NCBI GenBank assembly: GCA_013286285.1
Contig: JABDGA010000009.1
Coordinates: 242-43,554, forward strand
Direction: 5' to 3'
Origin: Alphaproteobacteria bacterium
GTDB taxonomy: Bacteria > Pseudomonadota > Alphaproteobacteria > Rickettsiales > JABCZZ01
DNA length: 43,313 nucleotides
Part shown: piece by piece, positions 20,262 through 40,326 of the stretch
Layout of the letters: every line of letters begins with the position of its first letter
Numbering within the stretch: the stretch's first letter is position 1
The notes under the pieces: generated by a model
Databases searched by the model: none
What the model was told of the DNA's origin: nothing
What the model saw: the letters and a program-made list of their open reading frames with translations, nothing else
Translations under genes and position numbers: made by a program

Positions 20262-21611
20262 ATGTTTACCATTTTCGCGCTTGCCACGCCGCCCGGAAAA
20301 TCCGGAGTCGCCGTCATACGCATTTCCGGCACGGCGGCAAAGGAATCATTCACCACGCTGGCTGTCCCCTTGCCTGCACCGCGCAGGGCGACGCTCGCCA
20401 CGCTGAAATACAACGATGAAATCATCGAAAAGGCGCTGGTGCTGTATTTTAATGGGCCGGAAAGCTTTACCGGCGAGGATGTCGTGGAAATCCATTGCCA
20501 TGGCAGCCATGCAGTATTGCGACAATTGCTGCGTATTCTTTCTGCATTGCCGCATTACCGCATGGCGGAACCAGGAGAGTTTACCCGCCGTGCTTTCCTC
20601 AATGGCAAGATGGACCTGACCGCCGCCGAAGGGCTGGCCGATCTGATAGATGCGGATACGGAAGCACAGCGCAAGCAGGCAATGCGGCTCATGGAGGGCG
20701 AGTCGGAGAAGTTTTACGGGGCTTTACGCAAGAACATCCTGCACAGCCTTGCCTTTCTGGAAGCCTATATCGACTTTCCCGACGAGGATATCCCCGACAC
20801 CGTCCTTGCGGAAATTGACTCGGAAATACAGGACATTGTACGAACCATCCACGCGCAGTTGGCTGATAATTCCGCCAGCGAAAAAATCCGCGAAGGTATT
20901 GCGATTGCCATCCTCGGCGCGCCCAATGTGGGCAAATCCAGCCTGATGAACCTGCTGGCCAAACGCGATGTCGCTATTGTCTCCAGCATCGCCGGCACCA
21001 CGCGCGATGTGATTGAAGTCCATCTCGACATCAAAGGCTACCCGGTCATCCTTGCCGATACCGCAGGCATCCGCGAACATGCCGATAGCATCGAGCAAGA
21101 AGGCATAAGACGCAGCTTAGAACGCGCAAAAGCAGCGGATATCAAGATTGTGGTGCTGGATGTAGCGGAGGTTGCAGGTTGCAGGTTGCAGGTTGCAGGC
21201 GCTTTAGATCTACTTGCAACATGCGACATGCAACCTGCAACGACTATTATCCTGCTCAACAAATCCGACCTTCTCCCCCCTCTTCCCCTTTCTCCCATCC
21301 ACGACATTATCCCTATCCCGTTCTCCGTGAAGGAACGCTTTGGTGTTGACAGCCTGATGCAAGCCATTGAGGAGAAAATTGGCGGGACCATTCCTCCGGA
21401 ACGATCATTTATCACCCGCCAGCGTCACCGTCTGCATCTGGAGACAGCCCTGAGCCACATGCAACGCTATACGCACATGCAGAATCAGGGCATTGAACTA
21501 CGATGCGAAGAACTCCGCCTCGCAGCAACCGAAATCGGCAAAATCACCGGCAGAATCCCGGTGGATGAAGTATTAGGAGAGATTTTCAGCAATTTCTGCA
21601 TCGGGAAATAA
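20262..21611 (+). CDS. mnmE: tRNA modification GTPase MnmE
   Basis: A 449-residue GTPase that, with MnmG, makes the cmnm5 group on wobble uridine of tRNA. N-terminal formyl-THF domain (SGVAVIRISG, GEFTRRAFLNGKMDLTAAEGLADLIDA), G domain with GAPNVGKSS (219-227), IAGTTRD, DTAG (266-269) and NKSD (333-336), and the C-terminal CIGK that carries the catalytic Cys. Between DTAG and NKSD, about residues 304-327 are encoded by a palindromic repeat (21171-21241), so that loop (AGCRLQVAGALDLL...CDMQPA) is non-family sequence. The frame stays open. Start ATG lies 6 bases after the mipZ stop. Confidence 0.96.
   Translation: MFTIFALATPPGKSGVAVIRISGTAAKESFTTLAVPLPAPRRATLATLKYNDEIIEKALVLYFNGPESFTGEDVVEIHCHGSHAVLRQLLRILSALPHYRMAEPGEFTRRAFLNGKMDLTAAEGLADLIDADTEAQRKQAMRLMEGESEKFYGALRKNILHSLAFLEAYIDFPDEDIPDTVLAEIDSEIQDIVRTIHAQLADNSASEKIREGIAIAILGAPNVGKSSLMNLLAKRDVAIVSSIAGTTRDVIEVHLDIKGYPVILADTAGIREHADSIEQEGIRRSLERAKAADIKIVVLDVAEVAGCRLQVAGALDLLATCDMQPATTIILLNKSDLLPPLPLSPIHDIIPIPFSVKERFGVDSLMQAIEEKIGGTIPPERSFITRQRHRLHLETALSHMQRYTHMQNQGIELRCEELRLAATEIGKITGRIPVDEVLGEIFSNFCIGK
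21171..21241. repeat. Heptamer-array palindrome inside the mnmE reading frame
   Basis: Four perfect tandem GTTGCAG units (21171-21198), then a spacer, then TGCAACCTGCAAC (21229-21241), the perfect 13-bp reverse complement of the left arm. The 71-base element is translated as part of the variable G-domain loop of MnmE. It looks like palindromic elements known to sit inside Rickettsia genes. Confidence 0.85.
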
Positions 21612-21623
21612 TATGGTTGCAAA

Positions 21624-21700
<77 letters not shown>

Positions 21701-27896: not shown

Positions 27897-29309
27897 CTAC
27901 ACCATTTTTTCCGGCTTCACCCATTCGTCAAACTGCTGCGCTGTAAGCAATCCAAGCACTATTCCTGCTTCTTTGAGCGACGTCCCTTCCTTATGCGCTT
28001 TTTTGGCAATCTTGGCGGCATTGTCATAGCCGATATGCGGGTTGAGCGCGGTCACCAGCATGAGTGACTCATTCATAAGCCTTGCAATCCGATCGGTATT
28101 GGCCACGATTCCCACCACGCAGTTATCCGTGAAACTCACCGCTGCGTCGGCAAGCAGCCGGATGGATTGCAATACATTATAAATAATCATCGGCTTAAAA
28201 ACGTTCAGCTCGAAATGCCCGTTCGAGCCACCGATGCTAACCGTCACATGGTTGCCCATCACCTGCGCCGCCACCATGGTCATGGCCTCCGACTGGGTAG
28301 GGTTAACCTTGCCCGGCATGATGGAGGAGCCCGGCTCGTTTTCCGGCAGCGACAGCTCCCCAAAACCGCAGCGCGGGCCGGAGCCGAGCAGTCTTATGTC
28401 ATTTGCAATCTTCATCAGCGATACGGCAAGCGTATTGAGCGCGCCCGATACTTCCACCATCGTGTCATGCGTGGCAAGCGCCTCGAATTTATTGGGCGCG
28501 GTGACAAAGGGCAGCTTCGTAAGCTTGGCGACTTCTTCGGCGAAGCCTTCGGCGAAGCCTTTCTTCGTATTCAGGCCGGTGCCCACCGCCGTGCCACCCT
28601 GCGCCAGTTGGTAAAGATGCGGTAACGTTACCTCCACACGTTTTATGCCGTTGGCTATCTGCGTCACATAGCCGGAAAACTCCTGGCCGAGCGTGAGCGG
28701 AGTCGCGTCCTGCAAATGGGTGCGGCCGATTTTGATGATGTCCTTAAACTCCTTCTGTTTATCCGCAAGCGCCTTATGCAGGTGCTTGAGCGCAGGAATC
28801 AGATGGCCCGTAATTTCGCACACGGCGGCGATATGCATCGCCGTCGGGAAGGAATCGTTCGACGACTGCCCCATATTGACGTGATCGTTGGGATGCACCG
28901 GCCTTTTCGACCCCATTACCCCACCCGCTATTTCAATCGCACGGTTGGAAATCACTTCGTTGACGTTCATATTGGTCTGCGTGCCGGAACCGGTCTGCCA
29001 GACGACCAGCGGGAAATTCCCATCCAGCTTGCCATCCACCACTTCCCCGGCCGCCTGCACAATATGCCCTCCGATGGATTCATCCAGCGCCCCAAGCCGC
29101 ATATTGACCGATGCCGCCGCCAGTTTAAGGATCCCGAAAGCACAGATAAGCGGCTTCGGCATGGTCTCATCGCCGATTTTAAAATTCCCCAGGCTCCGCT
29201 GCGTCTGCGCCCCCCAGTATTTATCTGCGGACACGTCAATCGCGCCGAAACTGTCCGTTTCGCTGCGCACGTTATCTGCGGTTTTGTTTTTCGCTTGCAT
29301 GGAACCCAT
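27897..29309 (-). CDS. fumC: Class II fumarate hydratase
   Basis: A 470-residue tetrameric, iron-independent fumarase of the TCA cycle that converts fumarate to malate. Signature [20 protein letters not shown] is intact, as are [38 protein letters not shown], and [20 protein letters not shown], and the C-terminal subdomain ends normally. The ATG at 29309 has GGAG eight bases upstream. It converges with the prepilin genes (25-base gap) and diverges from chpT. Confidence 0.97.
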
Positions 29310-39209: not shown

Positions 39210-40298
39210 TTACACGTTAAACCGAAAATGCAGCACGTCACCATCTTGTACTATATAGTCTTTTCCTTCCAGGCGGAGCTTACCCGCCTCTTTTGCTCCC
39301 TGCTCGCCCTTGCAGGCAACATAGTCGTTGTAGGCAATCGTTTCCGCACGGATAAAACCTTTCTCAAAATCGGTATGAATAACGCCTGCCGCCTGCGGCG
39401 CGGAAAATCCCCGTGAAATCGTCCAAGCCCTGGCTTCTTTAGGGCCTACGGTAAAAAAGGTAATCAAATCAAGCAGGGAGTACCCTGCGCGTATCAGCCG
39501 GGTAAGGCCTGTTTCCTGCAAGCCCAGCGCCGACAGGAATTCCTGCTTATCCGCATCGGGCAGTTGCGCCACTTCCGACTCAATCCGGGCAGAGATAATC
39601 ACGGCAGGGGCATTCACTTTTTCTATAACCTGCCGCGAATAATCATTGCCGGATGCCGCGCTTGCTTCTTCGACATTGCACACATAGAGCACAGGCTTTG
39701 CCGTCAGAAGCTGGGTATTCTTGATAATCCGGCGCTCCGCGTCATCCGCAGGCACCAGCGTCCGCGCCGGTTTTCCTTCTGAAACCACTTTCAGGAGCTT
39801 TTCCATGACTTCGGCCTGCTCTTTGGCATCCTTATCGCCCTTGGCTTTCTTCTGCAGTGCAGGAAGACGCTTTTCCAGGCTTTCCATATCGGCAAGTACC
39901 AGCTCAGTCTCAATAATCTCCGCATCGTCCAGCGGTGCTATGCGCCCTTCCACATGGGTAATGTCGCCATCCTCAAAGCAGCGTAGCATATAAATGATGG
40001 CATCCACTTCACGGATATGGGCAAGGAACTGGTTGCCAAGCCCTTCCCCTTTGCTGGCGCCGCGCACAATCCCGGCAATATCCACGAATTCCAGCTGCGT
40101 CGGGATGATTTGCGCCGAGTTGGCGATACCTGCCAAGGTGGTAATACGTTCATCCGGCACTGCCACCCGCCCGATATTAGGCTCAATCGTGCAGAACGGA
40201 TAATTCGCCGCCTCCGCCGCCTGCGTGGAGAGCAATGCGTTAAAAAGCGTGGATTTCCCTACATTGGGAAGGCCGACGATACCGCAGTTGAAGCCCAT
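39210..40298 (-). CDS. ychF: Redox-regulated ATPase YchF (Obg-like)
   Basis: A 362-residue member of the YchF/OLA1 family, a universally conserved P-loop ATPase that associates with ribosomes. G1 GIVGLPNVGKSTLFNAL, switch region NYPFCTIEPN, G3 DIAGIVRGASKGEGLGNQFL, the atypical G4 site NVEE (which switches specificity towards ATP), a coiled-coil segment (LEKRLPALQKKAKGDKDAKEQ) and the C-terminal TGS domain (DLITFFTVGPKEARAWTISRG..APQAAGVIHTDFEKGF). Intact and of usual length. A period-7 repeat lies just upstream. Confidence 0.97.
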   Translation of the reverse strand: MGFNCGIVGLPNVGKSTLFNALLSTQAAEAANYPFCTIEPNIGRVAVPDERITTLAGIANSAQIIPTQLEFVDIAGIVRGASKGEGLGNQFLAHIREVDAIIYMLRCFEDGDITHVEGRIAPLDDAEIIETELVLADMESLEKRLPALQKKAKGDKDAKEQAEVMEKLLKVVSEGKPARTLVPADDAERRIIKNTQLLTAKPVLYVCNVEEASAASGNDYSRQVIEKVNAPAVIISARIESEVAQLPDADKQEFLSALGLQETGLTRLIRAGYSLLDLITFFTVGPKEARAWTISRGFSAPQAAGVIHTDFEKGFIRAETIAYNDYVACKGEQGAKEAGKLRLEGKDYIVQDGDVLHFRFNV

Positions 40299-40305
40299 AA
40301 GGAAT

Positions 40306-40326
40306 AGTTGTCAGTTGTTAGTTGCC
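40306..40326. repeat. Heptamer tandem repeat upstream of ychF
   Basis: AGTTGTC, AGTTGTT and AGTTGCC follow without gaps, 8 bases from the ychF start on the minus strand. Unit length and composition resemble the arrays at 1454 and in mnmE. Confidence 0.55.

Follow-up and report, generated by a model that had tools for sequence, protein, structure and literature searches.

A translated heptad-repeat hairpin in mnmE is one of many dispersed heptad palindromes in a Rickettsiales genome

Analysis of a 43,313-nt stretch of alphaproteobacterial DNA of the order Rickettsiales (contig JABDGA010000009.1, positions 242 to 43,554, hereafter the window) revealed that a palindrome of tandem heptamers translated within mnmE is one copy of a dispersed and poorly described class of heptad palindromes. 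Earlier accounts of heptamer repeats concerned single species and treated them as curiosities of one sequence; in this genome many heptamers occur together, sharing one form and one polarity, and translated copies are found in about ten core proteins. In the following, G000 denotes the genome of the window, and G001 and G002 two species of the same genus, G001 being the sister species.

The hairpin in mnmE

The sequence-only reading had placed four GTTGCAG units and a perfect 13-bp inverted arm between the DTAG and NKSD motifs of MnmE, and these coordinates were reproduced (Table 1). The whole feature spans 21169-21241 and begins with a perfect period-7 array (21169-21199, 4.4 x AGGTTGC); the inverted arms (21171-21197 and 21215-21241) are 27 nt long and 89% complementary, with a perfect 13-nt pair inside them (21185-21197 and 21229-21241). 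The hairpin was also confirmed to be read in frame in an intact gene, since GKSS, DTAG, NKSD and the C-terminal FCIGK are all present despite the hairpin, and the protein scored 551 bits with the NCBIfam MnmE equivalog, for which the cut-off is 380. Matches to the 14-mer with at most 3 mismatches numbered 13, compared to 3.6 expected and a maximum of 7 in 100 shuffles; a chance repeat was ruled out by these counts together with the genome-wide excess of period 7 and of [AG]GT spacing given below.

Folding of the mnmE hairpin as RNA predicted one long hairpin for each strand, with -45 kcal/mol (z -7.4) and -38 kcal/mol. Searching it against Rfam gave no match at the gathering score, only sub-threshold miRNA-like ones, and a structured RNA or riboswitch was therefore dropped as a candidate. 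It was also noticed that a tRNA-Arg (CCT) gene lies directly downstream of mnmE on the minus strand (21624-21700), and that a self-complementary 12-mer, CTTCGGCGAAGC, occurs in tandem copies at 28535-28561 of the window.

Table 1. Heptad-repeat features of the window and core genes of G000 containing translated arrays
Feature	Position in window	Strand	Remarks
mnmE	20262..21611	+	tRNA uridine-5-carboxymethylaminomethyl(34) synthesis GTPase; 449 aa, ORF intact
5' (G-rich) arm	21171..21198	+	four GTTGCAG heptads; translated VAGCRLQVAG
Hairpin spacer	21199..21214	+	16 bases; encodes ALDLL, aligned with native helix of relatives (SLDLI, TLELI)
3' (C-rich) arm	21215..21241	+	reverse-complement heptads TGCAACA TGCGACA TGCAACC TGCAAC; translated ATCDMQPAT
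Second, shorter heptad array	40306..40324	+	AGTTGTC AGTTGTT AGTTG; 8 bp upstream of ychF-like GTPase gene 39210-40298 (-)
Class I tRNA synthetase gene			two arrays
leuS (LeuRS)			in-gene array
AddB-like nuclease gene			four arrays
lnt (Lnt)			in-gene array
hsp70 gene (Hsp70)			in-gene array
carA (CarA)			in-gene array
kdsB (KdsB)			in-gene array
2-oxoacid dehydrogenase E2 gene			in-gene array
Pseudouridine synthase gene			in-gene array
A24 peptidase gene			in-gene array

Comparison of the MnmE loop with relatives

Among 25 measurable MnmE proteins from the order, the interval between DTAG and NKxD was 67 residues in the window protein versus 55-64 in the 23 relatives without a recognised array, and the only longer one, of 70 residues, was that of G001; in the MnmE structure 9hip it comprises about 65 residues as counted from the alignment. 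The loop between G3 and G4 thus varies naturally in length across MnmE. Relatives lacking the array encode a shorter and different loop, and the same loop encoded without the DNA repeat, which had been named beforehand as evidence against an insert, was not found in this comparison. The earlier description of the loop as foreign nevertheless holds only in part: longer and different it is, but its net gain is 10 aa, not 24 aa, over the 57-residue interval of G002, and the peptide encoded by the hairpin spacer lines up with a native helix, which indicates that the arms flank native sequence.

At the same site, mnmE of G001 carries GTGGCCA GTGGTCA GTGGTCA together with a complementary arm that has decayed, and this tract begins at the codon position of the window's hairpin and ends at nearly the same one. 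Since a different heptamer hairpin, (GTGGTCA)n, occupies the identical site in the sister species, the site would seem to be old, with units that change over time, the homology of the two copies resting on shared boundaries while the units themselves now align poorly.

A genome-wide class of heptad palindromes

The host draft genome (1.45 Mb, 53% complete) was scanned for arrays over 1.32 Mb. At a score of at least 12, 29 arrays had period 7 versus 0-8 for other periods, the harmonic 14 excepted; four-unit runs of [AG]GT numbered 45 at spacing 7 versus 0-9 at spacings 4-6 and 8-16, and runs of [AG]GT..Y numbered 39 versus 0-3. The units fit the common form RGTNNYN while using many different heptamers, among which GTTGC[AC][AG], GGTNTCR and TAGGTNC were the dominant families as judged by eye, accompanied by several minor ones. 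Further copies, for which a genome search had been proposed, were found both within genes and in intergenic spacers; of the arrays examined, core genes account for about 30%. The picture of one family, as known for the Rickettsia palindromic elements (RPEs), was not borne out, because loci differ in heptamer and spacer and have no common core, spacer or peptide.

Pairing of arrays in inverted orientation was frequent: 34 of 60 arrays had, within 200 bp, a reverse-complement partner that surpassed 20 random places, compared to 6 with an extra direct copy, and an ungapped arm search identified 18 hairpins with heptad arms in G000. Arms of mixed units tend to mirror each other in order, most clearly in a perfect 25-bp pair (L178, 1975-2038), and arm identity was 0.93 in the mirror register versus 0.78 with units permuted, a comparison that is somewhat biased as the arms had been selected for complementarity. 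Polarity was strong: G outnumbered C in the 5' arm of all 18 hairpins of G000 and of 42 of 43 untied hairpins (42:1) of other heptamer families located near GTTGCAR hairpins elsewhere, whereas control hairpins were balanced (23:36 and 34:31).

Copies translated within other genes

Besides mnmE, arrays are located within genes for about ten core proteins, named from their Pfam domains (Table 1). Most of them (26-36 bp) change protein length by -4 to +5 residues relative to G001 or G002; larger gains were seen in mnmE (10 residues), for one synthetase array (8) and in hsp70 (15). In the AddB-like gene each of the four arrays replaces native sequence with a net change of 2-4 aa, and in carA the complementary arms lie about 108 bp apart around native coding sequence, in loops whose length hardly differs. 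In hsp70, the GTTGCCG array is immediately followed by a GGGGCGA-type array (L099, 9382-9430), which is translated as well. Units of the GTTGC[AC][AG] type are stop-free in all six frames; the notion that only stop-free heptamers enter genes was rejected, the difference being a trend (9/13 in-gene versus 14/31 others, Fisher p = 0.19).

Empty sites and changing units in related genomes

Comparison of orthologous spacers revealed that 1) a copy here accompanies a 107-bp spacer versus one of 4-10 bp in G002 and G001, 2) two more intergenic gains amount to 97 versus 18 bp and 236 versus 134 bp, and 3) a spacer between a stop and a start codon contains a 63-bp hairpin here and measures about 12 bp in G001. 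These orthologous empty sites show that part of the intergenic copies were gained by insertion of 60-100 bp.

These gains bear on the alternative that the palindromes arise in place without insertion, flexible loops being overwritten by quasi-palindrome template switching and 7-nt slippage. Such a process would suit the carA arms, the four replacements in the AddB-like gene, the native-like helix within the mnmE hairpin and the lack of target-site duplications reported below; clean gains against short orthologous spacers do not fit it, nor do the same heptamer families in unrelated phyla, which would not be expected from a local process acting on random sequence. We regard this alternative as doubtful.

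Heptads of different letters occupy the same site in G000 and G001 at three places, namely mnmE, carA and one spacer. In carA, five units in the same phase read AGTGGCG AGTTGCC GGTTGCC AGTAGCC AGTTGCA here and AGTGATC AGTTGTC AGTGACC AGTGAAC AGTTAGA in G001; in the spacer (82 and 75 bp), a TAGGTTC-type hairpin here corresponds to a GGTTTCG-type one in G001, their 3' arms still being alignable. Because the sister species has a different heptamer array at shared sites, copies appear to persist while their units turn over. A scan for tandem arrays found almost none in G001, where orthologous sites reveal mixed-unit hairpins; such hairpins are missed by tandem scans, and the array count for G001 is therefore a lower bound. 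In 0.8 Mb of G002 no such arrays were found. In other taxa, orthologous hairpins are kept at 77-92% flank identity, and one orthologous pair (L253/L286) differs by a 7-bp indel. It was also noticed that carA of G001 (L319, about 1590-1690) contains, at the position of the window species' second arm, a 28-residue in-frame insert (LPPSALRAASPAGS...) of an apparently different repeat type.

Many copies occupy short spacers separating codirectional genes, which, together with the retention of orthologous hairpins, the strong polarity and the stable RNA fold, would be compatible with a selected structure, such as a binding site or RNA hairpin maintained at chosen places. Against this stand host genes without common function, unit letters free to change, and a distribution in which most copies are species-specific and G002 is devoid of them in the region scanned; selection for such a structure is thus highly improbable as the explanation.

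Direct repeats of 3-10 bp flanking 145 hairpins showed no clear excess over shuffled flanks, and transposition with target-site duplication was dropped on this test. A search for Y1_Tnp in G000 (53% complete), G001 and the complete genome of G002 gave no match either; with neither target-site duplication nor Y1 transposase, no known mobilising enzyme was identified. An RPE- or MITE-like mobile palindrome, moved by some enzyme and inserted once into mnmE, would agree with the bacterial order, which is that of Rickettsia, with dispersed palindromic copies in frame in many genes and with the empty sites in relatives. The flank test, the lack of a shared core, spacer or peptide, the different units at the same site in the sister species and the absence of the RPE1 profile (see below) all argue against it, and we consider it improbable.

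Distribution beyond this genome

A scan for GTTGCAR hairpins yielded 106 stretches, and the 80 loci listed belong to 27 named genomes of unrelated phyla. Taxa among the matches listed are Bacteroidota, Anaerolineae, Firmicutes, Peribacteria and Proteobacteria, together with Desulfobacterota, Nitrospirae, Planctomycetota and Limisphaerales. Within the order of the window, three tandem GTTGCAR units were found only in this genome and in one single-hit genome, of 262. When spread by viruses was considered, one of 2.9 million viral contigs proved to carry a GTTGCAR hairpin (L295, 4828-4871). In two related Desulfotomaculum/Peptococcaceae genomes, hairpins (L248, 4723-4795; L230, 6016-6080) have outer units of the GGTGCCA family and inner AGTTGCA units. 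Their complementarity is perfect for as much as 35 bp, and the arrangement gives the impression of nesting or extension.

Proposed origin

On balance, it is probable that the dispersed heptad palindromes were inserted and then kept while their units were rewritten, the mnmE copy being ancestral. The class comprises hairpins with RGTNNYN arms, about 60-100 bp in size, along with occasional single arrays and pairs of more widely spaced arms; the G-rich arm is always 5'. New copies would arrive as insertions, mostly into short intergenic spacers and permissive protein loops, and persist thereafter, with 7-nt slippage and hairpin-templated (template-switch) copying from arm to arm presumably rewriting their units. 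The mnmE copy may predate the split of the window species and G001, its site having been occupied in their common ancestor rather than entered repeatedly, and would have become GTTGCAG here and GTGGTCA there. It would be translated because GTTGC[AC][AG] is stop-free in six frames and the G3-G4 loop tolerates changes in length; the translated loop is probably neutral and without a function for the host.

Several observations weigh against insertion followed by rewriting: the lack of target-site duplication and of a Y1 transposase, the variation of heptamers and spacers by locus, which is not expected from copies of one mobile sequence, and the frequent replacement of loops of similar length in coding arrays, which in-place rewriting fits better. 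Moreover, slippage and arm copying alone do not account for a seven-base period, for RGTNNYN as the form of the units or for the 5' position of the G-rich arm. A hypothesis cited in PMC4692102 relates heptamers to the DNA segment that the active site of the polymerase holds. We tentatively consider, as a less likely extension, that a single process, shared by unrelated phyla, generates palindromes of fixed polarity in steps of 7 nt, both inserting hairpins and converting existing sequence. If so, orthologous sites would keep the hairpin while the heptamer is replaced, and TAACTGA, GGGNATC and the STRR repeats would be single-allele cases.

The finding links tandem-repeat biology to translated palindromes, and the generating mechanism is testable by comparison of strains. 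It also shows, within Rickettsiales, a second route for palindromic DNA into proteins, different from that of RPEs.

Comparison with known systems

RPEs form families of about 150 bp with conserved sequence and peptide (PMC10969869). The parallel to RPEs drawn from the letters was upheld as to behaviour, the copies here being palindromic, dispersed and in frame within unrelated protein genes of the same bacterial order, but not as to membership: they share the heptad form only, with no common sequence or peptide, and partly overwrite their targets. The RPE1 profile (TIGR01045) reaches 48 copies per genome in one genus of the order and gave no match in G000 to G003, nor in the window's own family; membership was therefore rejected for RPE1, in agreement with the earlier remark that the sequence differs from RPEs. 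No RPE models were among the 25 NCBIfam matches of MnmE listed. The mnmE element thus resembles an RPE in behaviour but, by these tests, is not a member.

REP elements with RAYT (Y1) transposases are likewise short intergenic hairpins with polarity, but the arms here are heptad arrays, and identity with REP/RAYT was rejected on the absence of Y1_Tnp from the three genomes searched. The STRR heptanucleotide repeats of heterocystous cyanobacteria consist of 7-bp tandem units in several families, and are alike in these respects, as far as can be judged by description.

TAACTGA heptamer direct repeats occur in Beggiatoaceae, Cyanobacteria and Bacteroidetes (MacGregor 2015, PMC4679880). They share with the present class heptamer arrays, related interspersed units and a patchy spread across phyla, and by our own reading the complement AGTTATC fits RGTNNYN; they differ in being mostly single arrays before start codons, with only one inverted pair and rare related heptamers, and their copies in ORFs lie mostly in small hypothetical proteins, unlike the core genes here.

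Convergent heptamers, GGGAATC and GGGGA(C/T)T, have been described from Xanthomonas and Nostoc (Rehm et al. 2015, PMC4692102). Repeats of the GGGAATC type have units of 7 bp that vary among themselves, some positions being fixed and others free, occur singly or as convergent inverted pairs, are dispersed, and are kept between the same genes of related species with changing length; each genome has a single G-tract heptamer, for which quadruplex formation is described, and 7-11% are intragenic (PMC4692102). The present class is likewise built of tandem 7-bp units in which some positions are conserved and others free, in single arrays or in inverted pairs with the G-rich strand 5' of the spacer. 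It differs in that many heptamers coexist in one genome, with a larger share in core genes, and in that the main in-gene units, GTTGCAG and GTTGCCG, are without GGG tracts of the kind able to form quadruplexes. Among described kinds, the convergent GGGAATC repeats of Xanthomonas come closest, and by its anatomy the class found in G000 is a many-unit variant of convergent heptamer repeats.
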